NCBI GenBank assembly: GCA_017992055.1
Contig: JAGOPK010000007.1
Span: forward strand, 124,001 to 188,000
From: Burkholderiaceae bacterium
Lineage (GTDB): Bacteria > Pseudomonadota > Gammaproteobacteria > Burkholderiales > Burkholderiaceae_C
Direction of reading: 5' to 3'
DNA length: 64,000 nucleotides
The notes under the pieces were generated by a model that was not told where the DNA came from, did no database searches, and saw nothing but the letters and a program-made list of their open reading frames with translations. The translations under genes were made by a program, and so were the position numbers. This document shows positions 1 through 14,699 of the stretch, piece after piece. Every line of letters begins with the position of its first letter. The first letter of the stretch is position 1.

Positions 1-1
1 G

Positions 2-877
2 CTGTCCAGCTTTGCCTGCGCCATCCCCGGCATCATGGCCTCGCGCACCATCGGCGATGCACGCGACCGCCGCGTCACCATGCTGATCGCGCCGCTGATG
101 ACCTGCTCGGCGCGGCTGCCGGTGTATGCGCTGCTGATCGGCGCCTTCATCCCGGCGCGCGAGGTCACGGCGCTCGGGCTGCAGCTGCAGGGCCTGGTGC
201 TGTTTGCGCTGTACCTGGCCGGCATTGCCGGTGCCATGGCCGTGGCCTGGGTGCTCAAGCGCTGGGGCGGCGATGGCGGGGCGCTGGGCGTGCGCACGCT
301 GATGCTGGAGCTGCCCAGCTACCACTGGCCGCAGCCGCGCAGCATCGCCATCGGCCTGTGGCAGCGCGCGGCCATCTTCGTCAAGCGCGTGGGCGGCATC
401 ATCCTCACGCTGACCATCGTGCTGTGGGCGCTGGCCAGCTGGCCCGGCGCGCCCGAGGGTGCCAGCGGCGCGGCCATCCAGTACAGCCTGGCCGGCATGC
501 TGGGCCGCGGCCTGGAGCTGCTGCTGGCGCCGCTGGGCTTCAACTGGCAGATCGCCATCGCCCTGGTGCCGGGCCTGGCGGCGCGCGAGGTGGTGGTCAG
601 CGCGCTGGGCACGGTGTATGCGCTGTCGGCCGAGGGCGATGACGCCATGGCGCAGGCACTGACGCCGCTGCTGGCCGGCCAGTGGTCGCTGGCCACCGGC
701 CTGGCCCTGCTGGCCTGGTTTGTCTTTGCGCCGCAATGCCTGGCCACGCTGGCAGCGCTGAAGCGCGAAGGCGGCGGCTGGCGCCTGCCCCTGCAGGCCG
801 CCGCCTACCTGTTTGCGCTGGCCTACGCCGCCGCGTTTGTCACCTACCGAGTGGCGCTGGCCCTGGGCTGGGGCTGA
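2..877 (+). CDS. feoB: Ferrous iron transport protein B, C-terminal part (5' end outside window)
   Basis: This is the last 291 residues of FeoB, the inner-membrane Fe2+ permease; the reading frame is open from base 2, so the N-terminal GTPase domain lies outside the window. The segment holds the second Gate region, with the conserved Cys in MTCSARLPVYALL near residue 36, and several hydrophobic helices ending with a Trp/Gly-rich tail. The motif AAREVVVSALGTVYAL is typical of the FeoB C-terminus. A perfect hairpin follows the stop codon. Its position directly beside a Fur-box-controlled heme operon suggests that iron released from heme could enter by this route (inference). Confidence in the family is high. 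Confidence 0.95.
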   Translation: MSSFACAIPGIMASRTIGDARDRRVTMLIAPLMTCSARLPVYALLIGAFIPAREVTALGLQLQGLVLFALYLAGIAGAMAVAWVLKRWGGDGGALGVRTLMLELPSYHWPQPRSIAIGLWQRAAIFVKRVGGIILTLTIVLWALASWPGAPEGASGAAIQYSLAGMLGRGLELLLAPLGFNWQIAIALVPGLAAREVVVSALGTVYALSAEGDDAMAQALTPLLAGQWSLATGLALLAWFVFAPQCLATLAALKREGGGWRLPLQAAAYLFALAYAAAFVTYRVALALGWG

Positions 878-944: not shown

Positions 945-963
945 AATGCGAACGATTCGCATT
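945..963. promoter_or_regulatory. Fur box upstream of hemP
   Basis: The 19-mer aatgcgaacgattcgcatt is a perfect palindrome with 8-bp arms around cga, and the flanking t/a pair extends it to 21 bp. It fits the classical 7-1-7/6-1-6 Fur site. It lies about 105 bp before the hemP start codon, so iron-dependent repression of hemP and the three genes behind it is expected. Confidence 0.85.
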
Positions 964-1067: not shown

Positions 1068-1307
1068 ATGTTCACCCCTTCCGCCCAAGCTGCCGACCCG
1101 ATGAACCTGTCCGCCCTGCCGCCGCTGTCCGATCTGGCCGCCCCTGCCTCCGCAGCGGTCGCGCCCCTGCTGCGCCAGCAGGCCGGCCTGCGCCGCCTGG
1201 CCAGCCAGGCGCTGTTCCAGGGCCAGCAGGAACTGCTGATCGACCATGGCGAGGCCGTCTACCGGCTGCGCATCACCAGCCAGGGCAAGCTGATCCTGAC
1301 CAAGTGA
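1068..1307 (+). CDS. hemP: Hemin uptake protein HemP
   Basis: This 79-residue protein carries the HemP signature at its C-terminus: a QELLIDHGEAVYRLRITSQG stretch followed by KLILTK, which is the hallmark of the small HemP/HmuP family. Members are Fur-regulated and, in several proteobacteria, are needed for full expression of the heme receptor. The start at 1068 has an AGGAG ten bases upstream; the next in-frame ATG (1101) has none. The N-terminal half is Ala/Pro/Leu-rich and poorly conserved, as usual. It is the first gene of a rightward operon behind a Fur box. A DNA-binding or co-activator role here is inferred from relatives. Confidence 0.92.
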   Translation: MFTPSAQAADPMNLSALPPLSDLAAPASAAVAPLLRQQAGLRRLASQALFQGQQELLIDHGEAVYRLRITSQGKLILTK

Positions 1308-1409: not shown

Positions 1410-2585
1410 TTGTCCGCATCCGCCCTGCCACCGCCCGTCCCGTCGCCGGCCTCGAGCTGGCTGCGCGCCAGCCTGGCGCTGCCGCCGGCCGCCCCCCCGG
1501 CCTGGCCGCCTGAGCGCATCCAGCAGCACACGGCCGATCTGCGCCAGCGCCTGCACGCCGGGGCCGGGGCCTGGCCGGGCCAGCAGGGCCGCATCGCCCA
1601 GGCCCTGGGCCTCAGCGAGGCCGACCTGCTGCTGGCCCATGCCGACGACCCGGCCGGCACCCGCGCCCAGCCGCTGGCCCGGCAAGGCCTGCCGACGCTG
1701 CGGGTACGCGAGCTGCAGGCCGCCGCCGACGCGCTGCTGCAAGGCCTGGCCGCGCTGGGCCCGGTCGACACCCTGGTCGGCACCGAGGCCAGCCAGCTCT
1801 GCATCCGCGGCCCGCATCCCGGCCCGGGCTGGTGGCGTGGCCCGGTGCGTCGCGGGCCGGCCGGCGGGCAAGGCGCCGGCAGCACGGCCAGCGCCGTGCT
1901 GGAAAGCCCCGGCCACTGGTGGCGCCATGCGCTGGCGGTGGAGGCGCGCTGGCCCGGCCAGCCCAGCCAGCACAGCGTGCAGTGCTTCGACGCCCAGGGC
2001 GCGGCCTTGCACCGGGTGCTGCTGCACGAGGGCAGCCAGGTGGCCGCCTGGCACGATCTGGTGGGGCTGCATGGCAGCCGATGGCGCCCGCCGGCCGGCG
2101 TCCTGGGCGCCGGCGAGGCCGATCCGGCACCGGCCTGCGAGCCACTGGCCGACGGCCTGGCCAGCGAGGTGGCCACGGCCAGCGCCTGCGAGGTGCTGCA
2201 GCGCGCGGCCCAGGTCGGCCTGCCGCTGACGCTGAGCGTGCCGGCCGGCCCGCTGCGCCTGCACCGCCGCGGCCCGGTGCGCCAAGTGCGGCTGGACGGC
2301 GCCTGGCTCAGCGCCAGCCACGACGACTTCCAGTGGCGGCTGCGCGAGGACCGCATCGCCCGCGCCTGGGTCGTGCGCCGCATCGCCCGCGGCCCCGGCG
2401 CCCAGGGCCTGACGCATGCGCTGCTGCTGTTGGGAGGGCGCGGCGAGCCGCTGGCCGAGCTGCGCGACGACCACGGCCCCGGCCAGGGCGAGCGCTGCGA
2501 ATGGCGGCAACTGCTGTCCACGCTGGCGGCCGAGCCCGCGCCCGCCCCGTCCACCCCCTTGCCACGCTGGCTGCGGCCGGCCTGA
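1410..2585 (+). CDS. HemS/HmuS-like cytoplasmic heme-degrading or heme-binding factor
   Basis: This 391-residue protein resembles the HemS/ChuS/HmuS family. An N-terminal RIAQALGLSEADLLLAHA segment is typical of the opening helix, and the second half has REDRIARAWVVRR (about residues 312-325) followed by a beta-rich GDxxAxL-like strand and a terminal Trp-x-x-Leu helix. Family members bind heme in the cytoplasm and either degrade it or hand it on. The start is a TTG at 1410 with GGAG five bases upstream; no in-frame ATG is well placed. It follows hemP in a Fur-controlled operon. It is somewhat longer and more divergent than typical HemS (about 345 residues), and no heme ABC transporter is present nearby to feed it. 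Confidence 0.75.
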   Translation: MSASALPPPVPSPASSWLRASLALPPAAPPAWPPERIQQHTADLRQRLHAGAGAWPGQQGRIAQALGLSEADLLLAHADDPAGTRAQPLARQGLPTLRVRELQAAADALLQGLAALGPVDTLVGTEASQLCIRGPHPGPGWWRGPVRRGPAGGQGAGSTASAVLESPGHWWRHALAVEARWPGQPSQHSVQCFDAQGAALHRVLLHEGSQVAAWHDLVGLHGSRWRPPAGVLGAGEADPAPACEPLADGLASEVATASACEVLQRAAQVGLPLTLSVPAGPLRLHRRGPVRQVRLDGAWLSASHDDFQWRLREDRIARAWVVRRIARGPGAQGLTHALLLLGGRGEPLAELRDDHGPGQGERCEWRQLLSTLAAEPAPAPSTPLPRWLRPA

Positions 2586-2603: not shown

Positions 2604-3932
2604 ATGTGCCAGACCCCCAACATCCCGTTTGCCCGCCCACCCCAGGCCGAACCCCTGCTCGAACCCCTGATCGGCGCCCCCGCTGCGCCGGCCACGCCGC
2701 TGCCACCCGCGTCCGACACCGGCTCGCGCCGGCGCCGGCTGTGGGACCTGGACAGCCATGCGCACTGCCCGGTGGTCGGCGTGTGCCTGCCCATCGCCCA
2801 GCTGCGGCGCCTGGTGGCCCGCCATGCCTCGGCGCTGCCGGCGGCCGACGACTACGAGCTGCACTGCATCGCCGTCAACGAGTGCAAGCGCCGCAGCCCG
2901 CTGGCCGACAGCGTGCAGAAGGAGCTGGACCAGCGCTTCGCGCTGGCGCTGCGCCAGTCGGCCCAGGCCAAGACCACCGACGACCTGGCCGCCTGGTGGC
3001 GCGAGGCCTCGGCCGGCCAGGGCCAGGGCCCCGGCCACTCGCTAGCGGCGGCCTTCTGGGCCACGCTGACCCATGCCCGCTGCGACGAGCTGCTGACGCA
3101 GAAGGTGCTGGGCGAGGTGCACATGCTTCAGCACCAGGTGGGCATGGCCACGCGCGTGGAGCTGGCACGCTTCGAGGCGCTGATCGACGAAAACGCCGTG
3201 CTGGCCCGCGAGCTGGGCGCGGCCCAGGAGCGCACCAGCCGCCTGGCCGCCGAGCAGCAGCGCCGCATCGAGCAGCTGGAGGCCGAGGCCGTGCGCCTGC
3301 GGGGCGAGCTGCTGGCGCGCGACATGCGCCTGGCCCAGCAGCAGGAACGCATGCAGGCGCTGACCGCAGCCGCGCCGGACCTGGCGCCACGCCATGCCCT
3401 GGCCCAGGACAACCAGCGCCTGGGCGAAGCCCTGCGCGACGCCCGGCGCGAGCTGCAGCGCCTGCGCCTGGCCGCCGAGGCGCCGCCGGCCCTGCGCGCT
3501 GAATCGCCCGCCACGCCAACAACGGCCGAAGCGCCGGCAGCGTGCGAGCCGGCGGCCCGCAGCGCGCCGGTGATCCCCATCCTGGCCGACCGTGCAGTGC
3601 TCTGCGTGGGCGGCCGCTCGGCCAGCGTGCCGGCCTACCGGCAGTTGATCGAGCGCACCGGCGGACGCTTTCTGCACCACGACGGCGGCACCGAGGACAG
3701 CCCGGCGCGGCTGGATGCCACGCTGGCCGCGGCCGACCTGGTGATCTGCCAGACCGGCTGCGTCAGCCACGACGCCTACTGGCGCGTCAAGGACCATTGC
3801 CGTCGCACCGGCAAGCGCTGCCTGTTCGTCGACACGCCCAGCCGCAGCGCGCTGGCGCGGGCGCTGGCCGCGGCGGCGGCCGACGCCACGCGGGTGGACG
3901 AGGCCGCGCTGCCACAGCCCCAGGCCCGCTGA
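2604..3932 (+). CDS. DUF2325 domain protein with central coiled coil
   Basis: This 442-residue protein has three parts. Residues 1-190 are a globular N-terminal region of unknown fold. Residues about 195-290 form a heptad-rich coiled coil (many Glu/Arg/Leu/Gln repeats). Residues about 325-425 match DUF2325, with VLCVGGRSASVPAYRQLIE, a DGG turn and VICQTGCVSHDAYWRVKDHC. The VGG/VCQTGCVSH pattern resembles a nucleotide-type Rossmann-like fold with a conserved Cys/His pair that could bind metal or heme (inference). DUF2325 proteins are frequent beside hemP-type genes in betaproteobacteria. It is 18 bp behind the HemS-like gene and probably cotranscribed. Function is unknown. Confidence 0.8.
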   Translation: MCQTPNIPFARPPQAEPLLEPLIGAPAAPATPLPPASDTGSRRRRLWDLDSHAHCPVVGVCLPIAQLRRLVARHASALPAADDYELHCIAVNECKRRSPLADSVQKELDQRFALALRQSAQAKTTDDLAAWWREASAGQGQGPGHSLAAAFWATLTHARCDELLTQKVLGEVHMLQHQVGMATRVELARFEALIDENAVLARELGAAQERTSRLAAEQQRRIEQLEAEAVRLRGELLARDMRLAQQQERMQALTAAAPDLAPRHALAQDNQRLGEALRDARRELQRLRLAAEAPPALRAESPATPTTAEAPAACEPAARSAPVIPILADRAVLCVGGRSASVPAYRQLIERTGGRFLHHDGGTEDSPARLDATLAAADLVICQTGCVSHDAYWRVKDHCRRTGKRCLFVDTPSRSALARALAAAAADATRVDEAALPQPQAR

Positions 3933-4251: not shown

Positions 4252-5136
4252 TCAGCGCGTTGGCGTTGTGATCGGCGGCGTGACCGGCGGCAGCTTCAGG
4301 CCCGCGCAGGGGTCGGCGCGCTGCACGCCCGCGGTGGTCCAGCGCCGGTCCGCGGGCTCGCTGCCCGGCGCCATGCCCTGCTCGTCGAGCACCACGCTGA
4401 CCACGCCCAGCCCCGGCGCCCAGGCCGCCAGCAGCTGCGGCACGCCATGGTCGCGGCGCACATGGCCGTTGCCGGCCACCAGCACCGCCGGCCGGGCGCC
4501 GGCCGCATGGGCCTGCAGCAGGGCCTGGGCCATGGCCGCGTCACGCGCGCGTTGGGCAGCACGCATCGCCGGCACGCGGCTGGCCGGCAGCTGGCCGCAG
4601 TGACCGTCGATCAAGGCCTGGTCCAGCGCCGCCTGGGCCTGCGGCGGCAGCGGCGCGGCACGCAGCCGGTCGGCCACGCCGGGCGGCAGCGTCGCATCCC
4701 AGGCCGCCTCGCCGCGACGGGCGATGTCGCGCGCGCTGTCGCGCGGCAGGTTGCCGCCCCAGACCGGCAGGCCGGGCTTCGGGCCGGCGGCCAGCGCCGG
4801 CTCGAACAGCGGCCGGTGCAGCGGCCAGGCCCAGCCGCGGGCATCGAAGCCGGCTGCCTGCAAGGCCGGCAGCAGGTCTTGCGCCGCCGCCGCGGCATCG
4901 ACGCGCTGGCCCAGCGTCAGATGCTCGGCCACCACCACGGCACGGCTGCCGCGCAGGCTGGCCAGCCATTCGCCACGGCGCTGGTGGTGGGCCGGGTTGT
5001 CGTGGCGCTCGCCGAGCAGCACGATGTCGGCCTGCTCCAGCGCCGGCACGCCGGGCGTGGCACAGCCGCTCAGCAGGGCCGGCGCCAGGCCGGGCGCCAG
5101 GCCCAGGACCAGCACCTGCCGGCGCTGCAGCCTCAC
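4252..5136 (-). CDS. ChaN-family heme-binding lipoprotein
   Basis: This 294-residue protein opens with an export signal ending in the lipobox LLSGC (Cys near residue 25). The motif [19 protein letters not shown] is the signature of the ChaN/'Cofac_haem_bdg' family, and a second His-containing block ([16 protein letters not shown]) lies near residue 225. In Campylobacter, ChaN is an iron-regulated outer-membrane lipoprotein that binds stacked heme. The gene is the last of the receptor/chelatase operon and its start overlaps the stop of the DUF2149 gene by 4 bp, so translation is probably coupled. It may buffer or pass heme in the periplasm (inference). Confidence 0.82.
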
Positions 5137-5459
5137 TGGCCGGCCTCCGGCACATAGACCATGGACCCGTCCTTCATGCGATAGGCCACGCCGGCCTTGT
5201 CGCCGTCGCCCGAGCCGATGGCGCCGCTGGCCTGGTAGCGCTCGATCTTCTGGCCCTGCTTGACGGTGATCTGCATGTTCGGCTTGCCGGGATCGGTGAC
5301 CACGGTGATGTCGCTCTTGCTGAAGGGGTTGATCAGCGGGTTCTGCGCCACGGTGATCAGCAGTGCGGCGATGATGACCAGGAAGATGTCGATCAGGTTG
5401 ACCACCGACAGGATGGGATCGTCGGTCTCGGCCTCGTGCAGCAGCTTCAGCGCCATCAT
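5133..5459 (-). CDS. DUF2149 domain protein (HmuV-type partner of CobN/ExbB)
   Basis: This 108-residue protein has one membrane helix (residues about 18-40, NLIDIFLVIIAALLITVAQN) and a small C-terminal domain ending in a GSMVYVPEAG-like strand. It matches DUF2149, whose members sit beside MotA/TolQ/ExbB proteins and CobN-like chelatases. The topology, a single N-terminal helix plus a periplasmic domain, is like ExbD/TolR. I infer that it is the ExbD-like half of a dedicated energising complex. Its start overlaps the preceding channel gene's stop by 4 bp, and its own stop overlaps the ChaN start by 4 bp. Confidence 0.82.
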   Translation of the reverse strand: MMALKLLHEAETDDPILSVVNLIDIFLVIIAALLITVAQNPLINPFSKSDITVVTDPGKPNMQITVKQGQKIERYQASGAIGSGDGDKAGVAYRMKDGSMVYVPEAGQ

Positions 5460-5962
5460 GCCGCTCCGGTGGCGGCGTTGGCCGGCGGGTTCAGGCGGCG
5501 GATCTCCAGCAGTTCCTCGGCCAGCCAGCGCCGGCGCACATGGGCCACCCAGAAGGTGATGGCCGCGGCGATCAGCGCCAGGATCACCGCCGAGAAGGCC
5601 ACGCCCAGGTTCTGCGACACCTGGGCCAGGTTGCCGTCGGACAGGCCCTTCAGCGCCGGCCCCATCGGGATCATGGTCGCCACCAGGCCCAGCAGCGGCG
5701 TCACGCGGCTGGCGATGCGCGGGCCTTCCATCAGCTTGTGGGCATGCAGGTCCAGCGTGTCTTCGTCCAGGCCCTGCGGGCCGGCAGCGCGGTGCAGGGC
5801 CAGCAGCGGCCGGCCCTGGCCCGAGCGGCGACGCCAGGCGGTCATCGCAAACTCGCCCAGCACCCAGAAGGCATAGAGAAACAGCGCGGCGATCAGCAGC
5901 AGCGTGGGCAGCAGGAACAGCTGCGCCACCGTGTACATGGAGTGTTCCAGGGTCTGGCTCAT
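5456..5962 (-). CDS. MotA/TolQ/ExbB proton-channel family protein
   Basis: This 168-residue protein starts at MSQTLEHSMYT. An upstream open frame continues but overlaps the CobN-like gene, and the ATG at 5962 forms a 4-bp ATGA overlap with that gene's stop. There are three predicted membrane helices: residues about 12-35, 85-105 and 115-140. The core RVTPLLGLVATMIPMGPALKG is the TolQ/ExbB pore signature. Such proteins form H+-driven channels that energise TonB-like partners. With the DUF2149 gene it probably makes a complex serving the adjacent CobN-like protein or the receptor. This is the same pairing seen in Bacteroidetes hmu loci and some archaeal CobN loci. Confidence 0.88.
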   Translation of the reverse strand: MSQTLEHSMYTVAQLFLLPTLLLIAALFLYAFWVLGEFAMTAWRRRSGQGRPLLALHRAAGPQGLDEDTLDLHAHKLMEGPRIASRVTPLLGLVATMIPMGPALKGLSDGNLAQVSQNLGVAFSAVILALIAAAITFWVAHVRRRWLAEELLEIRRLNPPANAATGAA

Positions 5963-8900
5963 GGCTTGGGGGACAGAGGGGAAAGCTTGAACAGGGCGGT
6001 GCCGGGGTGATCGCTGCGGCGGGCGCGCCAGGCGCCGCCGGCCATCACCAGGCCCAGCGCCAGCAGCGCGGCCAGCACAGCCGGCACCGTGGCCACGTCG
6101 TCGGCGCGCGGCAGCACACGGTCCAGGCGCAGACCGGTGACGGGCGGCGGTGGCGGCGGCGCCGCAGCGGCTGGCGGCGGCTCGGCCTGGGCGGCCGGGG
6201 CCGCGGCCTGCCGCTGAGGCTGGGCCGCACCGGCCGGCGCCTGCATGCCGAAGCCCGGCGTGGCCGTTGCCGTGGCGGTCTGCACGAAGCGCTTGAACTC
6301 GGCGTTGTCGCTGCGCACGTCGTGGCGCCGCGCCAGCTCGTTGTAGCGCGCCTTCAGCTCGGCCACGCTGCGTGCGTCGGCCTGCCACTGGCCCAGGCGG
6401 GCGGCCTCCAGCATGCGTTCGATGCTCTGTGCCAGCGCATGCGGGTTGTGCTGCTCGAACCAGCGCGCGAGGCCCAGCTCGTGCTTGTCGCGCACATAGA
6501 CGTCCATGAACTCCTGCCACTGGTCGTGGCGCACGATCTCGCGCGCCACGCTCTGCCAACCGGCAAAGTTATTGATGCCGTCCAGCACCTGCAACGTGCC
6601 GCTGTAGCCCTCGCGCATCAGGCCCTGGATGTAGCCCGGATGGAAGTTGCGCGTGGCCAGTTCCTTGGCCAGGAACTCGGCCGCACCTTCGACCTTGCCG
6701 CCGCCCGGGCCGGTGCCGCGCAGGTTGCTGATGTACAGCTCGGGCGCCTGGCCATCGAGGTGGCGCACGGCCAGGCCCAGGCCGCCCAGGTACTGGAACG
6801 GGTCGTCGGTGGTGAGCATGCCGTAGAGGTTGCTGGAGCGCGCCAGCACCGCGCCCTGGGTGCCGCGCAGGTGCTCGGCATAGAGGTTCAGCGCGCCCGC
6901 CGTGGCCACGCCGGCCTGGCCCCAGCGCGACTCATCCGGCCCGTAGGCGTATTGCATGCGCTGCAGGTACAGCGTGGCCAGCTTGCGGTCGCCCTCGGCC
7001 TGGGTCTTCCAGCTGTCGGTGGCCAGGGCCGCATCGTCCAGGCCGGTGCCGTAGCGGCCCGAGGCGCTGGAGAAGATGCGCGTGGCGCCGGCCAGCCGCG
7101 CCTGCTCCTCGGGCACGCCGTTGGCCGCCAGGCTGCGGGCGATGCGCCGGGCATTGGCGGCCACCGGGTTGTCGGCCTCGTCCACCGCCGCCGCGGCCAG
7201 CTCGGCAGCGCGGGCCAGCTGGCGCATCACATTCGGAAAGTGGTCGCGGTACAGGCCGGTGGCCGACAGCACCACGTCCACGCGCGGCCGGCCCAGCTGC
7301 TCGCGCGGGATCAGCTGCACGCCGCTGACGCGGCCGCCGGCGTCCCACTGCGGCTGCACGCCCAGGGCCCACAGCGCCTGGGCCTCCAGCACGCCGAAGT
7401 GGCGCATGGTCTCCACCGACCACAGCGTCAGCGCCAGCTTGGTGGGCGGTGATCCGGTCTTGGCGCGGTGGGCGGCGATCAGCTGGTCCATCGCCGCCTT
7501 GCCGGCCTCCCAGGCGGCCCGGGTGGGCACGCGGCTGGGATCGAAACCGTAGAGGTTGCGGCCGGTGGGCAGGGCATCGGGGTTCTTGATCGGATCGCCG
7601 CCATAGCTGGTGGGGATGTGGCGGCCGGCCAGGCCGGCCAGCAAGCCGGCCAGCTCGCCGCGGGCGCCCAGCTGCTCGTACCAGGTGCGAGCCTGGGCCG
7701 CGCGCTCGGGCTTCAGGCCGGCCGGCAGCGTGGCGCCGGGCTCGCCGCGCAGCCAGGGCGCCAGCAGGCGGTAGGGCTTGGACTCGACCAGGCGACGGTG
7801 GTCGGCGATCAGCATCTCGTCGGCCTCCTCGCCCAGCTTGGCATCGGCCGTGCCTTCCCAGAAATCCTTGCCCAGCATCATCAGCACGCTGGCCACGCGC
7901 AGCGGCTCGTCGGGGCCGGCGCCGAAGGTGTGCAGGCCCATGGGCTGGGCGCTCAGCGCCAGCTCGTGCAGGTGATCGTGCACGGCGCTGACAAAGCCGT
8001 TGAAATCGGCCTGGATGCGCGCCTCGCTCCAGCCCATGTCGGCGGGGATGCGCTCGGCGCGCACGCGGGCCAGGAAGTCCTGGCGCAGCTGGTCCTTGAC
8101 GCCGCCGCCGTCCTGGGCCAGCCACTGGTGCAGCAGGTCGTGGATGGTCGTCAGCCGGTCGTGCAGGCCGGCCGGCACCAGCGGTGGCGTCTGGTGGCTG
8201 AGGATCACCGCGCGGCCACGCCGCTTGGCCTGGGTGGCTTCGCCGATGTTGTCGACGATGTACGGATACAGCACCGGCAGGTCGCCGACGGCCAGCATCG
8301 GGTAGTCGGTGACGGCCAGGCCACGCTCCTTGCCCGGCAGCCATTCCTGCGAGCCATGGGTGCCGAAGTGCACCAGGGCATCGGCGGCAAACTGCTCGCG
8401 CGCCCACAGGTAGACGGCCATGTAGTAATGCGTGGGTGCGGCGCTCATCGAGTGGTACAGCGCCTTCTCGCGGTCGGCGCCACGCTCGCCGCGGCCGGGC
8501 TGGGGCAGCAGGCTGACCGTGCCCAGCTGCAGCCGCGGGATCACGAAGAAGGGCTCGCCGTCGCCATCGCTCAGCAGCATCGCCGAGCGTTCCGGTGCGC
8601 CGCCGGCGGCATCCATCTCGGCACGCTGCTTCTCGGGCAGCGTGGCCAGCCAGGCGCGGTAGCGCGACAGCGGCAGCCGGTCCGCCAGGCCGTCGCGCAG
8701 CAGCTCGCGCAGCACCTGGCGGTCTTCGGGCGGGCGGTAGGCCGGCGTCAGCAGGCGCTGCAGGCGGGTGGTCAGCGCGTCCGCATCCAGGTTCTGGGTG
8801 CCGTAGCCGGCCTGCTGCAGCGCGGCCAGCGTGCCGCTCAGGCTGCGTGGCAGGTTCATGAAGCTGGCCGACAGGTTCTTCTCGCCCGACGGGTAGTTCC

Positions 8901-10077
8901 AGAAGAAGATGGCCACGCGCTTGGCCGCCGCCGGCTTGCGCTGCAAGGCCACCAGGCGCAACGCCTTCTGGGCGATGGCCGCCGACTGGCCGGCAATCGG
9001 CAGCAGCTGCTCGTCGCCAGCGCGCGTGGCAGCGGCGATCTGGATGTCGGTGATGCCGGCGTATTCGGCCTGGGCCAGGTAGAACGGCACATCCATCAGC
9101 GGCACGCCCTGGGGATCGGCGGCCCAGGTGGACGCGTCGCCACGGCGATAGCTCATGGCCTGCACCACCGGCACGCCCAGGGCCTCGAAGGCCTTGCGCC
9201 GGCCCTCGGCGTCCAGCGTGATCTGGGTGTTGATGAGGGCATCCACCCGCGGCCGGCCCTGGGCGTCGCTGAGCTGGCGCACCAGGGGCTCGGCGCCCAT
9301 CACCGGGCCATAGAACGGCAGGGCGCGGGCGCCGCCGGCCTCCAGCCGGGCGATCAGGTCGTCCAGCAGCGCGGTCTGCTCGGCCGAGATGCTCTGCGGA
9401 TGGAAGGCGATGGCCACCACCGGCGCCCCCGCCGGCAGCGGCGAGACACGCTGCAGCGTGGCCAGATAGGCCTCGGCATCGGCCGTCACCAGGCCCGGCA
9501 GGCGCGGATGGTAGAAGCCCGCGGCCGGAAACAGCTGCGGCGCCGGCAGCATGGCCCAGGACGGCGCGGCGCCGGGCAGGCGCAGCCAGGACGCCAGGCT
9601 GGCCAGCCACTGCTGGCGGTTGTGTGCGCCGCCATGCTGGTGATAGGCCTGCAGGCGCTGGGCAAAGGCCGCATCCAGGCCGCCGCCGGGCTGGGCCGCG
9701 CTGCTGCTGAGCCAGGCATGGGGCCGGCCGGCCAGGGCCGGCAGCGCAGCGGCCAGGCGGCTGCGCATGAAGTCTTCCATGTGCTGGCGTGGCGCGTCGA
9801 ACAGCACCAGGGCCGCGCCGTCCCACAGCGCCGGCCCCGGCGCCGGCGTGGCCGGCAGCTTTTCAACGTACTGCACCTGCAGACTAAAGCCCAGTGGCAG
9901 CGCGGCCTGGGCCAGCAGGGCATAGCGTCCCGGCGCCACCGGGCTGGTGGTGTAGACCTGGACCGTCGGCACGGGCTGGGCCTGAGCCTGGGTCTGGGCC
10001 AGCGCCGGCCGCAGCCAGCCGACCCAGGCCAGCAGCGCCAGCAGCCCGGCCACCAGCAAACGCAACAGCGGGTGCAT
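5959..10077 (-). CDS. Exported CobN/BchH-like chelatase with C-terminal membrane anchor (HmuS-type)
   Basis: This 1372-residue protein belongs to the CobN/Mg-chelatase H family. Family blocks include VHFGTHGSQEWLPGKERGL, DNIGEATQAKRRGRAVILSH, LAGRHIPTSYGGDPIKNPDA and SASGRYGTGLDDAALATDSW. Unlike cobalt chelatase it has a signal peptide (MHPLLRLLVAGLLALLAWVG, ending near ALA-Q), a Pro/Ala-rich linker near residues 1295-1325, one membrane helix near 1340-1360 and a short cytoplasmic tail. The bulk should therefore lie in the periplasm. No CobS/CobT or ChlI/ChlD partner is present. The gene follows the TonB receptor by 4 bp. Relatives named HmuS in Bacteroidetes act on heme; removal of iron from heme is the likely role here (inference). 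The start at 10077 replaces a longer open frame because it begins the signal peptide. Confidence 0.88.
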   Translation of the reverse strand: MHPLLRLLVAGLLALLAWVGWLRPALAQTQAQAQPVPTVQVYTTSPVAPGRYALLAQAALPLGFSLQVQYVEKLPATPAPGPALWDGAALVLFDAPRQHMEDFMRSRLAAALPALAGRPHAWLSSSAAQPGGGLDAAFAQRLQAYHQHGGAHNRQQWLASLASWLRLPGAAPSWAMLPAPQLFPAAGFYHPRLPGLVTADAEAYLATLQRVSPLPAGAPVVAIAFHPQSISAEQTALLDDLIARLEAGGARALPFYGPVMGAEPLVRQLSDAQGRPRVDALINTQITLDAEGRRKAFEALGVPVVQAMSYRRGDASTWAADPQGVPLMDVPFYLAQAEYAGITDIQIAAATRAGDEQLLPIAGQSAAIAQKALRLVALQRKPAAAKRVAIFFWNYPSGEKNLSASFMNLPRSLSGTLAALQQAGYGTQNLDADALTTRLQRLLTPAYRPPEDRQVLRELLRDGLADRLPLSRYRAWLATLPEKQRAEMDAAGGAPERSAMLLSDGDGEPFFVIPRLQLGTVSLLPQPGRGERGADREKALYHSMSAAPTHYYMAVYLWAREQFAADALVHFGTHGSQEWLPGKERGLAVTDYPMLAVGDLPVLYPYIVDNIGEATQAKRRGRAVILSHQTPPLVPAGLHDRLTTIHDLLHQWLAQDGGGVKDQLRQDFLARVRAERIPADMGWSEARIQADFNGFVSAVHDHLHELALSAQPMGLHTFGAGPDEPLRVASVLMMLGKDFWEGTADAKLGEEADEMLIADHRRLVESKPYRLLAPWLRGEPGATLPAGLKPERAAQARTWYEQLGARGELAGLLAGLAGRHIPTSYGGDPIKNPDALPTGRNLYGFDPSRVPTRAAWEAGKAAMDQLIAAHRAKTGSPPTKLALTLWSVETMRHFGVLEAQALWALGVQPQWDAGGRVSGVQLIPREQLGRPRVDVVLSATGLYRDHFPNVMRQLARAAELAAAAVDEADNPVAANARRIARSLAANGVPEEQARLAGATRIFSSASGRYGTGLDDAALATDSWKTQAEGDRKLATLYLQRMQYAYGPDESRWGQAGVATAGALNLYAEHLRGTQGAVLARSSNLYGMLTTDDPFQYLGGLGLAVRHLDGQAPELYISNLRGTGPGGGKVEGAAEFLAKELATRNFHPGYIQGLMREGYSGTLQVLDGINNFAGWQSVAREIVRHDQWQEFMDVYVRDKHELGLARWFEQHNPHALAQSIERMLEAARLGQWQADARSVAELKARYNELARRHDVRSDNAEFKRFVQTATATATPGFGMQAPAGAAQPQRQAAAPAAQAEPPPAAAAPPPPPPVTGLRLDRVLPRADDVATVPAVLAALLALGLVMAGGAWRARRSDHPGTALFKLSPLSPKP

Positions 10078-10081
10078 GGGA

Positions 10082-12436
10082 TCAGAAACGCCAGCGCAGG
10101 CTGGCGCTGACCGAGCGGCCCGGCTGGCTGTAGGCATCGACCAGGGCCAGGTTGGCGGCGGTGCTGGTGAGGCCACGGATGTCGGTCCACAGCACGTAGT
10201 TCCGGTCGCTGAGGTTGTTCAGGCTGGCCATCAGCTGCAGGTCGCGGCTCAGGTTCCACCAGGCCGACAGATCGGCCTTGGCATAGCCCTCGGGCACGAT
10301 CAGGCCGCTGGCCTGGGGCCGGCGCTGGCTGCGCTGGGCGGTGAGCAGCAGCTCAGCGCCATAACGTTCGGCCTGCTCATAGGCCAGCGACAGCGTGGCC
10401 TTGTCGGGCTCGATGCTGGCCAGCGGCGTCTTCGTGCCATCGGTGGCCACCGAATCGCCCTTGGCATGGGCATAACGCGCCTCGGCCTTCCAGCCCGGCA
10501 GAAAGCGCCAGGCCAGCTGGGCCTCGACGCCCGCAATCTCTGCGCGGCGCAGGTTCACCGACTGGAAGGTGCGCGTGCTCGCCGCCATGCCGGCCTCCAG
10601 CGGCACCGTGGTGGTGGCGGTGACGTCGACATTGCTGTCGATGAAGTCGCGGTAGCGCGACGAGTACAGCGCCAGCGAGCCGCTCCAGTCGCCCAGGCGG
10701 CCACGCAGGCCCAGCTCCAGCGAGCGGCTGTGCTCGGGCTTCAGGTCCGGATTGCCGATCGAGCGGTAGGGCGGATTGGCCGTGGTGTTGCTGACCCCGC
10801 CATTGACCTGCCAGGGCGTGGGCGCACGGAAACCATGGCCGTACTGGCTGTAGACCTGCCACTGCGGCGACAGCTTCCACACCAGGCCCAGGCGCGGCGA
10901 GGCGGCACTGTCGCTCAGCGTGGACGGGGCGACCTTGTTGTTCACCGTGTACAGCGGGTTGCCGGTATCGGGCTGCAGGCTGAAGCGGTCCAGCCGCAGC
11001 GCCGGCGTCACGGTCAGCGCGCCCCAGCTGATCTCGTCCTGCACAAAGGCGCCCAGGGTGCGGTAGTCGGTGTCGGGGAAGCTCTGGTTGGGCACGAAGC
11101 CGCCGACGATCAGGCTGCCGCTTTGCGCATAGTGGGCGCCGTCCTTGTACGAATGCAGGCGCGCATCCGACACATCGGCGCCCACCAGCACCCGGTGCGC
11201 CACCTCGACGCCGAAGTTGGCCTCGGCCTGGACACTGGCGCCGGTGCTGCGCTCGCCATAGCGGGTGTCGCGCACACGGCGGCTCCAGGCGGCGGCGGCG
11301 CCATAGGTCTCCTGGCCCCACTGGCGGTTGCTCGTGTCCTGGGCATAGACGTGGGCGTTGACGCGCTGGAACCAGGCCGCCCGCGGATTGACGTACTGCC
11401 ACTCCAGCTTGCCCAAGGTGCGCGAGATGTCCTCCTGCGCCGCGCCGCCGGTGACGTTGGCATTGACCAGGGGCATGCCGATCAGCGTGTACAGCGGATC
11501 GGTGCGGTTGCTGCGGTCCAGCCATTCCAGCGTGGCCTTGAACTGGTGGTGGCCGTCCAGCCTGTACAGCGCCTTGCCCAGCACATAGTCGGAACTGCGG
11601 TCCTGCGGGTTGGGCGCCGTGCGGTTCCAGTTCAGGCCGGTGTTGCTGCCCTGGTTGTCCAGCTCATGGCCGCGGCGGATGCTGGCCAGCAGCAGGCCTT
11701 CCCAGGCACCGTCGCGCAGCGCCAGCTGCGGCACCAGGCTCCAGCTCTTGTCGGCCGAGTCGTAGCCCAGCTTCACCGCGCCGGCCAAGCTCTCGCCCTT
11801 GCGCAGCAGGTCCGACGGGTCCTTGGTGACAAAGCTCACCGCGCCCGACAGGCCGTCGGAGCCGAAGGCGGTGGACGAGGGCCCGCGCAGCAGCTCCACG
11901 CGCTTGTAGGCCTCGATGTCGATGTAGTCGCCGCGGCCGGCGACGAACGGGCCGCTGTCGTAGGCCAGCGGCAGGCGCACGCCGTCGGTCTGCAGCAGCA
12001 CCTGGTTGCCCTCCAGGCCGCGGATGTTGATGCCCTCGTTGCCGCCGCGACCGGTGGCGCCGAACACCGCCGACATGCGCGCCGGCTGCAGGCGCACGGC
12101 GATGCCGGGCTCGTCGTCGAGCAGGCTCTTCAGGTCGCGCGCACCGCGGCGCTCGATCTCCTCGGCGGTGCGCGTGGTGATGGTGGCGGCCACCTGGTCC
12201 TCGGCGGTCTCGATGCGCGTGGCCGAGGTCACCACCCGCGGCAGCGTGCCCACGACCTGTGGCGCGCTGGCCGGCGCGGCCGGTGTGGCTGGCGTGGCGC
12301 CGGCCTGGGCCAGGGCCGCGCCGCTGCTGGTGGCCAGCACGGCCAGCACGGCCGACACCATGGGCAGACGGGAATGGGGAACGGGCGAACGGAACGGGAC
12401 GGTACGACGCAGCACGGCAGACGGCTCCAGGCACAT
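10082..12436 (-). CDS. TonB-dependent receptor of the heme/hemoglobin type
   Basis: This 784-residue outer-membrane receptor has a signal sequence (hydrophobic core MVSAVLAVLATSSGAALA), a plug domain (VVTSATRIETAEDQVAATIT; GNEGINIRGLEGNQVLLQTDG; VELLRGPSSTAFGSDGLSG) and a 22-strand-type barrel ending in VSASLRWRF with terminal Phe. FRAPTPWQV and NPDLKPEHS correspond to the FRAP and NPNL boxes of heme receptors. The His usually found between those boxes is not present. The ATG at 12436 was chosen because it starts a basic n-region; a leader of about 150 nt then separates it from the Fur box at 12603. It is first of a five-gene operon. Confidence 0.88.
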   Translation of the reverse strand: MCLEPSAVLRRTVPFRSPVPHSRLPMVSAVLAVLATSSGAALAQAGATPATPAAPASAPQVVGTLPRVVTSATRIETAEDQVAATITTRTAEEIERRGARDLKSLLDDEPGIAVRLQPARMSAVFGATGRGGNEGINIRGLEGNQVLLQTDGVRLPLAYDSGPFVAGRGDYIDIEAYKRVELLRGPSSTAFGSDGLSGAVSFVTKDPSDLLRKGESLAGAVKLGYDSADKSWSLVPQLALRDGAWEGLLLASIRRGHELDNQGSNTGLNWNRTAPNPQDRSSDYVLGKALYRLDGHHQFKATLEWLDRSNRTDPLYTLIGMPLVNANVTGGAAQEDISRTLGKLEWQYVNPRAAWFQRVNAHVYAQDTSNRQWGQETYGAAAAWSRRVRDTRYGERSTGASVQAEANFGVEVAHRVLVGADVSDARLHSYKDGAHYAQSGSLIVGGFVPNQSFPDTDYRTLGAFVQDEISWGALTVTPALRLDRFSLQPDTGNPLYTVNNKVAPSTLSDSAASPRLGLVWKLSPQWQVYSQYGHGFRAPTPWQVNGGVSNTTANPPYRSIGNPDLKPEHSRSLELGLRGRLGDWSGSLALYSSRYRDFIDSNVDVTATTTVPLEAGMAASTRTFQSVNLRRAEIAGVEAQLAWRFLPGWKAEARYAHAKGDSVATDGTKTPLASIEPDKATLSLAYEQAERYGAELLLTAQRSQRRPQASGLIVPEGYAKADLSAWWNLSRDLQLMASLNNLSDRNYVLWTDIRGLTSTAANLALVDAYSQPGRSVSASLRWRF

Positions 12437-12602: not shown

Positions 12603-12621
12603 AATGCTAACCATTCTCATT
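12603..12621. promoter_or_regulatory. Fur box between receptor operon and S9 peptidase
   Basis: The 19-mer aatgctaaccattctcatt is an imperfect palindrome (6 of 8 arm pairs) that, read on the minus strand, closely matches the GATAATGATAATCATTATC consensus. It ends 11 bp before the peptidase ATG and lies about 165 bp before the receptor ATG, so it could repress both. A tatagact sequence at about 12592 is a candidate minus-10 element. Confidence 0.75.
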
Positions 12622-12632
12622 TGAATCGAGCC

Positions 12633-14699
12633 ATGGATTTCTCCCGCCTTCTGCTGCAGCGCCGCCAATGGCTGGGTCTGGGCCTGCTGCCCACGGCGCT
12701 GGCAGCCCGGACGGCCAACGCAGCGGCCGCGTCGGCCGCCCTGCCGCCCCTGCCGCCCCTGCCGGTCGAGGCCTTCGCCGCGCCGCCCCAGGTGCAGTCG
12801 CTGAGCCTGTCGCCCAACGGCCTGCAGGTCGCCGGCCTGCTGAACCTGGGCGACGACACGCTGCTGTTCACCCGCGCGCTGGACGGCGGCGCCACGCCAC
12901 GTGCGGTGCTGAAGACCGACAACCGCCAGTTCCGCTTTCTCTGGCACCGCTGGGCCAATGACCGGCGCCTGCTGGTCAGCGTGGTCTATCCCAACAAGCG
13001 CGGCTTCGTCGACATCCAGGAAACCCGGCTGCTGGCGGTGAATGCCGACGGCAGTGGCCTGCGGCCCCTGGTCGAGCATTTGTCGGTCAAGGGCCGGGTG
13101 GTCAGCGCCCAGTTCCAGGACCGCGTGGTCGACTGGCTGCCCAAGGATCCCGACCATGTGCTGCTGCAGCTGCCCGACACCAGCTCGGGCCTGCCGGCGG
13201 TGTGGCGGGTGCAGGTGGACAGCGGCGAGCGCCAGATGGTGCATCCGCCCGAGCGCCGCATCGGCGGCTGGATGACCGACTGCCAGCACCGCGTGCGCCT
13301 GGGCTGGGGCCGCGACAAGGAGCAGCTGCGCATCATCGTGCGCGACGCCACGCCGCCCGGCCAGCCGCCAGCGCCCTGGCGCGAGCTGTGGCGCTGGGAC
13401 ATCGGCAGCGCCGACGAGGTGGACGTGCTGGGCTTCGACCCCGATCCGCAGCGCCTGTGGCTGCTGGCCAACCACCAGGGCCACGCGGCGCTGTTCACCG
13501 CCGAGCTGTCGGAGGCGGCCACGCCGCGGCGCCTGGTGCTGGCCCGCGCGGGCGCCGACGTGGCCGGCAGCCTGCTGCGCGACCCGCTGAGCCAGGCCGT
13601 GCTGGGCCTGCGCACGGACGGTGACAACGACGGCGACAGCGACAGCGGCGCCAGCGGCGACGCCGGCCGCCCCGAGCTGCTGGATGCCGGCCTGCGCCAG
13701 CTGGCCGAGCGCATCGACGCCACGCTGCCGCAGCGCTACAACCGCCTGCTCCAGCCCAGCGCCGATGGACGGCGCTGGCTGCTGTATTCCAGCGGCAATG
13801 CCCTGGCCGGCGAGTACCACCTGGCCGAGCGTGGCCAAGGCGAAGCCGCACCCGTGCTGCGCCTGCTGGCCGAAACCCGGCCGCAGCTGCCACCCGAGCG
13901 CCTGGCCGGCAAGGCCGTGGTGCGGCTGCGCGCCCGCGACGGCCTGCAGCTCACCGCCTTTGTGATGCGCCCGCCCGGCCAGGACGGCCCGGCCGGCGCC
14001 GACGCAAAAGCCGGCCCGCTGGTGCTGCTGCCGCATGGCGGCCCGCATGGCGCCGACGACGACGACTTCGACCTGCTGGCCGAGCTGCTGGCCAGCCGCG
14101 GCTGGACCGTGCTGCAGGTCAACTTCCGCGGCTCCGACGGGCGCGGCCAGGGCTTTCGCGCCGCCGGCTACAAGGCCTGGGGCGGCGCCATGCAGGACGA
14201 CCTGGTCGACGCGCTGGATTGGGCCGTGGCCCAGCGCCTGGCCGACCCGGCGCGCGTGGCCATCGTCGGCGCCAGCTATGGCGGCTATGCGGCGCTGATG
14301 GGCGCGGTGAAGACGCCCACGCGCTGGCGCTGCGCGGTCAGCATCAACGGCGTGTCCGACCTGATCGCCCTGTGGCGCAATGCCATGGACTATGCCGGCG
14401 GCGAGCAGGCCATGCGCGTGCAGCTGGGCGAGCTGTGGGGCGACCGCGAGCGCCTGCTGGCCACCTCGCCGGCGCGCCAGGCCCAGGCCATCCAGGTGCC
14501 GGTGCTGCTGCTGCACGGCACGGCCGACCGCGTGGTGCCGCTGGCGCAGAGCCGGGCCATGGCCGCGGCGCTGAGCGCCGCCGGCAAGCCGCACCGCCTG
14601 GTCGAGATAGCCGGCGGCGGCCACAGCCTGGAGCGCCGCGCCGACCGGCTGACCTGGTTCCGCGAGATGCTGGGCTTTTTGCAGCAGCACCTGGGCTGA
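12633..14699 (+). CDS. Secreted S9-family peptidase (prolyl oligopeptidase type)
   Basis: This 688-residue protein has an N-terminal signal (ROW RRQWLGLGLLPTALAARTANA), a predicted beta-propeller (residues about 45-410, repeated short strands such as GRRWLLYSSGNALAGEYHL) and a C-terminal alpha/beta hydrolase domain. The triad is visible: Ser in GASYGGYAALMG (about 548), Asp in LHGTADRVVPL (about 630) and His in GGGHSLERRAD (about 664). It should cleave short peptides in the periplasm or outside. The ATG at 12633 is preferred over an upstream TTG at 12621 inside the Fur box. It is divergent from the heme receptor and shares its Fur box, so iron regulation is likely. Confidence 0.88.
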   Translation: MDFSRLLLQRRQWLGLGLLPTALAARTANAAAASAALPPLPPLPVEAFAAPPQVQSLSLSPNGLQVAGLLNLGDDTLLFTRALDGGATPRAVLKTDNRQFRFLWHRWANDRRLLVSVVYPNKRGFVDIQETRLLAVNADGSGLRPLVEHLSVKGRVVSAQFQDRVVDWLPKDPDHVLLQLPDTSSGLPAVWRVQVDSGERQMVHPPERRIGGWMTDCQHRVRLGWGRDKEQLRIIVRDATPPGQPPAPWRELWRWDIGSADEVDVLGFDPDPQRLWLLANHQGHAALFTAELSEAATPRRLVLARAGADVAGSLLRDPLSQAVLGLRTDGDNDGDSDSGASGDAGRPELLDAGLRQLAERIDATLPQRYNRLLQPSADGRRWLLYSSGNALAGEYHLAERGQGEAAPVLRLLAETRPQLPPERLAGKAVVRLRARDGLQLTAFVMRPPGQDGPAGADAKAGPLVLLPHGGPHGADDDDFDLLAELLASRGWTVLQVNFRGSDGRGQGFRAAGYKAWGGAMQDDLVDALDWAVAQRLADPARVAIVGASYGGYAALMGAVKTPTRWRCAVSINGVSDLIALWRNAMDYAGGEQAMRVQLGELWGDRERLLATSPARQAQAIQVPVLLLHGTADRVVPLAQSRAMAAALSAAGKPHRLVEIAGGGHSLERRADRLTWFREMLGFLQQHLG

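Follow-up and report, generated by a model that had tools for sequence, protein, structure and literature searches.

We analysed a 64,000-nucleotide stretch of DNA from a Burkholderiaceae bacterium (the window, meaning this whole stretch; source genome 5.9 Mb, 99% complete) and found that it carries a leftward five-gene operon that is, on balance, probably a Fur-controlled heme-iron acquisition operon with extracytoplasmic de-chelation of heme. A role in heme-iron acquisition is likely, heme iron being the best-supported substrate, and we infer that de-chelation outside the cytoplasm by the CobN-like protein of the operon is the best single mechanism suggested by the sequence. Stripping of iron in the periplasm and entry of Fe2+ through FeoB is plausible.

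The operon encodes a TonB-dependent receptor, a CobN-like class I chelatase, an ExbB-like channel protein, a DUF2149 protein and ChaN (Table 1). An earlier note on this DNA had described five leftward genes joined by a 4 bp gap, which lies between the receptor and CobN-like genes, and by 4-bp overlaps, found at the remaining three junctions. This layout was confirmed throughout, and the families are Pfam matches. The receptor had been called heme-type, and it scored over the cut-offs of both heme models of NCBIfam (TIGR01786, 360 versus 324 bits; TIGR01785, 322 versus 317 bits), next to a TonB barrel match (E=1.6e-55). The loop between its FRAP and NPDL boxes contains Tyr and lacks His, and the leader RNA at the receptor gave a structure z of -1.15. 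Hydrophobic N- and C-terminal segments support the description of the CobN-like protein as exported and anchored, unlike five of five cytoplasmic CobN/BchH references, which have no such segment at either end.

Genes and sites around the operon also point to iron. Adjacency of feoB, already claimed in the earlier note, was borne out, and feoA precedes feoB just beyond the window edge. That note had overlooked hemP, a HemS-like gene and two Fur-box-like sites, one before hemP and one before the receptor. These palindromes are the only matches of at least 9/10 in 64 kb (average 0.1 in 20 shuffles) to the Fur-box core used in the scan. The operon is probably switched on by iron shortage, as such sites would predict. 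HemP/HmuP proteins are regulators of heme uptake (PMC11442138, PMC9241770; here and below, papers cited by PMC number are cited for the parts of their text available to us), and the window HemP has the family feature of a short protein with a C-terminal KLILxK motif (PMC9241770). An S9-family peptidase gene (12621-14699, + strand, ATG about 12633) begins right beside the Fur-like site before the receptor, and this site may therefore control both directions. A DUF1513 gene (L098 8654-10426, - strand) lies left of feoA beyond the window, upstream of feoAB.

Table 1. Coordinates of the operon and of the iron-linked features in the window
Feature	Coordinates	Strand	Evidence
TonB-dependent receptor, heme-type	10082..12436	-	TIGR01786/TIGR01785 over cut-offs; FRAP...NPDL boxes; ATG at 12436 or 12361
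CobN-like class I chelatase, exported, C-terminal anchor, 1372 aa	5959..10077	-	PF02514 E=2.9e-285
ExbB/MotA-type proton channel protein, 168 aa	5456..5962	-	PF01618 E=1.6e-5
DUF2149 ExbD-like protein, 108 aa, one hydrophobic segment	5133..5459	-	PF09919 E=4.9e-29
ChaN (haem-binding, Tiki superfamily), lipobox-like LLSGC	4252..5136	-	PF04187 E=2.1e-37
3' part of feoB (feoA and 5' part of feoB just outside the window)	1..877	+	Pfam; the genome's only FeoB_C match
Fur-box-like site (TAATGCGAATCGTTCGCATTA with flanks), upstream of hemP	947..961	.	At least 9/10 core matches
hemP (HemP/HmuP family, ends KLILTK)	1068..1307	+	PF10636 66.2 bits
HemS/ChuX-like heme-handling gene	1410..2585	+	PF05171 9e-18, PF06228 3.5e-16; no export signal by eye
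DUF2325 protein	2604..3932	+	PF10087; also near related modules
Fur-box-like site (AAATGAGAATGGTTAGCATTT with flanks), between receptor and divergent S9-peptidase genes	12605..12619	.	9/10 core matches

Following the gene-order search suggested in the earlier note, a genome-contig scan found the module in relatives, of which the best 80 of 246 were taken and are those counted below; 74 have betaproteobacterial record titles, five are titled Proteobacteria or Pseudomonadota only, and one Chromatiales. Among their CobN-like proteins long enough to judge, and at the threshold used, 62/78 have a hydrophobic N-terminus and 60/75 a C-terminal segment. Of the 74 loci in which a receptor is in view, 63 have both ExbB and DUF2149. 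Among the 11 others, eight stop no more than 0.5 kb from the chelatase gene and L059 no more than 1.7 kb from it; L021 and L077 are real misses. ChaN occupies three different operon positions.

On their phmmer scores against the window receptor, and with a length filter, the receptors of the relatives were classed as heme-type (50 loci) or CirA-like (24 loci), and six loci have none. FRAP..NPxL boxes occur in 41/51 heme-type receptors, the window's included (40/50 relatives), versus 0/23 CirA-like ones. When ten receptors (nine from the 80 loci plus L003) were run against NCBIfam, both heme cut-offs were passed by 5/5 heme-type and 0/5 CirA-like receptors. Fur-like sites, scored in 71 classed loci since three receptors lie too near the locus edge, accompany 25/48 heme-type versus 2/23 CirA-like receptors (Fisher p 5e-4). 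Similarly, heme-type loci more often carry HemP (14/50 versus 0/24; Fisher p 0.003) and ChaN (18/50 versus 1/24; Fisher p 0.004), with DUF2325 at 17/50 versus 3/24 (p 0.057). Receptor regions were scanned for Fur and Zur cores in 75 of the 80 loci, five having no receptor in view. Fur-like sites were found in 27/75 loci, the corresponding rates being 0.6% for shuffles and 3.7% for 800-bp windows drawn at random from the same loci; Zur-like cores showed no clear enrichment in these regions (3/75 at 10 or more matches versus 1.7% of shuffles, and 0/75 at 11 or more).

The CobN-like protein was compared with HmuS, the chelatase of Bacteroidota hmu loci. An AlphaFold2 model (residues 70-1267 in P0001 numbering, pLDDT 84) adopts the class I chelatase fold and aligns over most of their length with CobN (TMq 0.75), HmuS (0.71) and ChlH (0.65). 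The structural comparison proposed in the earlier note thus upheld the fold, with similar scores for CobN and HmuS. A profile built without HmuS rows scored HmuS slightly best (577 bits, versus 522 for CobN and 501 for ChlH). On a FastTree phylogeny, the window clade has support 1.0 and the exported group without HmuS 0.95; the node uniting HmuS with the other exported proteins has 0.32, so their common descent to the exclusion of CobN is unsupported.

Part of the HmuS active site is kept. His607, Glu646 and Asp1124 of the window protein correspond to His538, Glu577 and Asp1208 of HmuS, and an alignment of 34 rows shows no variation at the His607 and Glu646 positions. Of these residues, His538 has been found essential for HmuS of B. 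theta (PMC12583661). The window protein contains HFGTHG and 80/80 relatives contain H(F/Y)GTHG; the HFG(T/A)HG motif does not discriminate HmuS, because His538 is conserved superfamily-wide (PMC12583661). Features that do mark HmuS are Met79 and His254, motifs of the body (LSLDHxxEFMGG among them) and a Met-rich stretch inserted into domain IV, at least 22 aa long and 82 aa on average (PMC12583661); these were absent from the window protein. Domain IV covers 107 aa and contains 3 Met in this protein, and it covers 102-118 aa across the 80 relatives, versus 166-355 aa and 8-32 Met in three HmuS references. The neck of the window protein reads INTQI where HmuS has His254 (HGR), with Pro at Met79, in an alignment uncertain by 1-2 residues; a His lies within the neck motif in 2/80 relatives (L041, L042). 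In place of LSLDHxxEFMGG the window protein has LTTDDPFQYLGG, with His1209 of HmuS replaced by Asp and Glu1212 by Gln, and TDDPFQ is found in 80/80 relatives. Orthology with HmuS was rejected on the missing insertion, head/neck ligands and second active-site His, and equating the two proteins on the strength of the earlier note is not supported. The protein plausibly works like HmuS, as far as its sequence tells, while falling outside that family. As a PF02514 protein predicted to be periplasmic and membrane-anchored it is of BtuS type; its export-type N-terminus and C-terminal anchor, together with the lack of a CobS match passing its cut-off (CobT was not searched), set it apart from cytoplasmic CobN with its CobS/CobT partners.

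The genome holds a single PF02514 gene and, in searches with PF01126, no heme oxygenase (EfeB/YfeX, HugZ and IsdG-type enzymes were not searched). The earlier note had neither CobS/CobT nor ChlI/ChlD in view; genome-wide, no CobS match passed its cut-off (CobT and ChlI/ChlD were not searched in the genome). The note had also seen no heme ABC transporter in view. In the genome the HmuV model scored 212 bits, under the cut-off of 261, and there is one FecCD permease, whose B12 assignment is not firm. The neighbours of this permease are a BtuF-like PF01497 binding protein, an ABC ATPase and the cobO gene (PF02572), which passes its cut-off. Because of this position it is probably BtuC, and the transporter BtuFCD, in a B12 cluster, although the NCBIfam scores for BtuC (181 bits, cut-off 334) and BtuF (85, cut-off 234) are all under. 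The ABC ATPase of this cluster (L002 2457-3236) matched the heme-transporter model best (213 bits, cut-off 261) and could serve B12 or heme. HmuV, with 64 first-look candidates scored per genome, and PF01126 were searched in 27 of the 28 module genomes, L055 being left out. HmuV scored over cut-off in 1/27 (L075, CirA-type) and in 0/20 heme-type genomes; across the order it did so in 15/150. A cobalamin role marked by riboswitches was also considered and rejected, as none was found in the window or at the module in the 12/80 relatives scanned. The sole cobalamin riboswitch match among the relatives scanned (L016 21124-21346) precedes a second, distant CobN-family gene and not the module.

In the mechanism we favour, iron limitation would lift Fur repression and HemP would help expression, as suggested by the Fur-like sites and hemP. 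The TonB receptor, by its family and boxes, would bring heme into the periplasm, where ChaN, the CobN-like protein or both may hold it. By homology, the anchored CobN-like protein would open the metal-nitrogen bonds via His607/Glu646 and release iron outside the cytoplasm, with Asp residues at the place of the second His of HmuS. ExbB/DUF2149 may energise the receptor or the chelatase. Fe2+ would enter via FeoAB, given their adjacency and the single FeoB match of the genome, and any heme arriving in the cytoplasm would be dealt with by the HemS-like protein. The iron and heme link drawn in the earlier note is well supported by the receptor family and its boxes, HemP, the HemS-like gene, ChaN, feoAB and the Fur-like sites, and by the difference between heme-type and CirA-like receptor loci; its extension to HmuS itself is not supported.

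Several observations count against de-chelation under Fur control. HmuS-specific features are missing from the window protein, its modelled fold is as near CobN as HmuS, and the Asp at the His1209 position is also present in 4/4 cytoplasmic CobN references. A strong Fur match is lacking in 23/48 heme-type loci. The tree shows only six switches of receptor type, against a mean of 21 when the labels are shuffled, and therefore neither the loci nor the Fisher tests are independent. A PF01126 heme oxygenase is present in 7/27 module genomes, and mutual exclusion of HmuTUV and DUF2149 within the order is not supported, HmuV being over cut-off in 4/12 DUF2149 genomes versus 11/138 others. Since the ATPase of the cobO cluster scores best on a heme model, itself under cut-off, and BtuC is under its cut-off, the genome may still encode a heme ABC importer, and because a HemS-like gene is present the cytoplasm may process part of the heme. 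In B. fragilis, protoporphyrin was still made after mutation of both btuS1 and btuS2 (PMC6460266).

Some of the same facts would fit a non-catalytic relay, in which the CobN-like protein and ChaN do no more than bind heme in the periplasm and pass it to an inner-membrane importer, possibly the FecCD-type ABC transporter, and the HemS-like protein frees iron in the cytoplasm. The HemS-like gene adjoins the module, the second HmuS active-site His is Asp in 80/80 relatives, the ATPase beside the FecCD permease favours the heme model while under its cut-off, and protoporphyrin IX (PPIX) was still formed in a Bacteroides btuS mutant (PMC6460266). We nonetheless consider a relay unlikely, given that the FecCD transporter adjoins cobO and a BtuF-like protein, the His607/Glu646 equivalents are invariant, and the sole FeoB match of the genome is next door. 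Removal of zinc, nickel or cobalt from a receptor-imported metallo-tetrapyrrole or metallophore appears quite unlikely: the window combines a heme-type receptor and Fur-like sites with HemP, a HemS-like protein, ChaN and feoAB, and Zur-like cores are not clearly enriched in the relatives. What speaks for such a role is the Zur regulation of P. aeruginosa PA1922-25 (PMC4542158, PMC10393844) and the occurrence of relatives near nikR (Azospirillum), hydrogenase-maturation genes (Runella) and cobalamin genes (Trichlorobacter). Finally, the NCBIfam name would make the protein a true cobaltochelatase inserting cobalt for B12 synthesis. NF004644 (CobN) is passed with 1348 versus 1248 bits, and the Asp of motif 2 is shared with cytoplasmic CobN; the hydrophobic termini that those references lack, the lack of a CobS match passing its cut-off (CobT not searched), the absence of a B12 riboswitch from the window and the heme-type receptor render this highly improbable.

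Among known systems, HmuS/hmuYRSTUV of B. theta and P. gingivalis (PMC12583661, PMC13227078, PMC10434189) shares with the operon a TonB heme receptor, an exported chelatase, an ExbB-like protein and DUF2149, and ExbB and DUF2149 are described in Bacteroidota hmu loci (PMC10434189). HmuS shares equivalents of His538/Glu577 and is iron-regulated, with FeoB proposed as iron entry. The match to this arrangement claimed in the earlier note thus held for four genes, but equivalents of HmuY and HmuT are missing from the five-gene operon, which is therefore not a complete hmuYRSTUV operon; ChaN, HemP and the Fur-like sites are extra in the window. P. aeruginosa PA1922-PA1925, likened here by its description, is also an operon with a TonB receptor, a CobN-like and an ExbD-like gene (PMC4542158, PMC10393844), but it is Zur-regulated and thought to serve zinc. 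Cytoplasmic CobN and ChlH/BchH share fold and superfamily, CobN also having Asp at the His1209 position; they differ in being unexported, working with AAA+ partners and inserting metal.

The BtuS family, reportedly originating with Rodionov et al. 2003, is a further point of comparison. It has been described as a third kind of CobN-related protein, predicted to be periplasmic and anchored and proposed to act in metalloporphyrin salvage (PMC6460266), and the window protein is alike in these respects. Results are mixed: B. fragilis btuS mutants grew poorly on heme and PPIX was still formed (PMC6460266). The literature matches listed comprised work on HmuS/BtuS in Bacteroidota and the Zur-linked Pseudomonas operon; none of them treats the module as a betaproteobacterial heme system, subscription journals being mostly outside the search. 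Biological de-chelation was called controversial prior to the work of PMC12583661 itself, and direct evidence of enzymatic heme de-chelation comes, by the cited papers, from Bacteroidota HmuS alone. The module bears on how bacteria use heme when a heme receptor is present and neither a heme permease nor a PF01126 heme oxygenase is evident. Since the active site of the proteobacterial version differs, it could be used to test directly which residues are required for de-chelation, including whether the second His can be spared, and this in genera that can be cultivated, such as Rubrivivax. A set of proteins that currently bear the name 'cobaltochelatase subunit CobN' may also find its explanation here.

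Exported relatives occur in other settings as well, their metal being read from neighbour genes alone. With ExbB/DUF2149 they accompany HmuY in Aureibacter, Bacteroides finegoldii and Prevotella nigrescens. On an Azospirillum brasilense Sp 7 plasmid (L089, 4596-16554), genes for a CobN-like protein with motif 2 STDHPFEYLGG, which has the HmuS-like His and Glu, for ExbB, DUF2149, a ferredoxin-domain protein and a TonB receptor lie beside nikR, together with an ABC binding protein and a permease annotated as iron transporter. On a Runella slithyformis plasmid (L006, 3161-13878), TonB receptor, ExbB, DUF2149 and CobN-like genes stand among hyp hydrogenase-maturation genes; this module includes a gene annotated urease accessory protein and is possibly a nickel version. 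On a Trichlorobacter lovleyi plasmid (L090, 1240-16853), the module has its own ExbB-ExbD-TonB and adjoins genes for cobT (phosphoribosyltransferase), BzaF and cobyric acid synthase. Nine CirA-type modules with CobN-like, ExbB and DUF2149 genes (L043, L047, L055, L062, L087, L033, L044, L060 and L003) are flanked by a Crp/Fnr regulator. These are of Acidovorax/Comamonas/Simplicispira/Diaphorobacter type, with a binding protein, an ABC permease and mostly NnrS nearby, which suggests a denitrification-like setting. Unsupervised clustering of neighbours also pointed to ABC and NnrS genes, in an analysis blurred by shadow frames. On a Comamonadaceae OTU4NAUVB1 plasmid (L088, 8486-13559), an ExbB-DUF2149-CobN-like trio has no annotated TonB receptor within 9 kb.

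Such varied neighbours suggest a single enzyme platform whose receptor and regulator can be exchanged. More broadly, exported class I chelatases might form a general envelope metal-stripping cassette, in which ExbB-DUF2149 would be a motor driven by protons, taking the place of ChlI/ChlD or CobS/CobT, which depend on ATP and cannot work in the periplasm, and receptor and regulator would be swapped per metal, with heme iron here and nickel, cobalt or zinc elsewhere. We regard this as conceivable but doubtful. The frequency of the ExbB/DUF2149 pair (63/74 loci) and the receptor-less trio on one plasmid are in its favour; heterologous B. theta HmuS, on the other hand, is reported to convert heme with NADH, with no motor named in the available text (PMC12583661). 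If true, it would open a general way of obtaining metals bound up in organic complexes.

Among the relatives, second divergent exported-type CobN-like genes were found beside the window-type gene in L042 (14445-18698) and L037 (16261-20469). In L081 (9932-13857), a metagenome-assembled genome, the CobN-like gene runs over two frames, through a frameshift or an assembly error.

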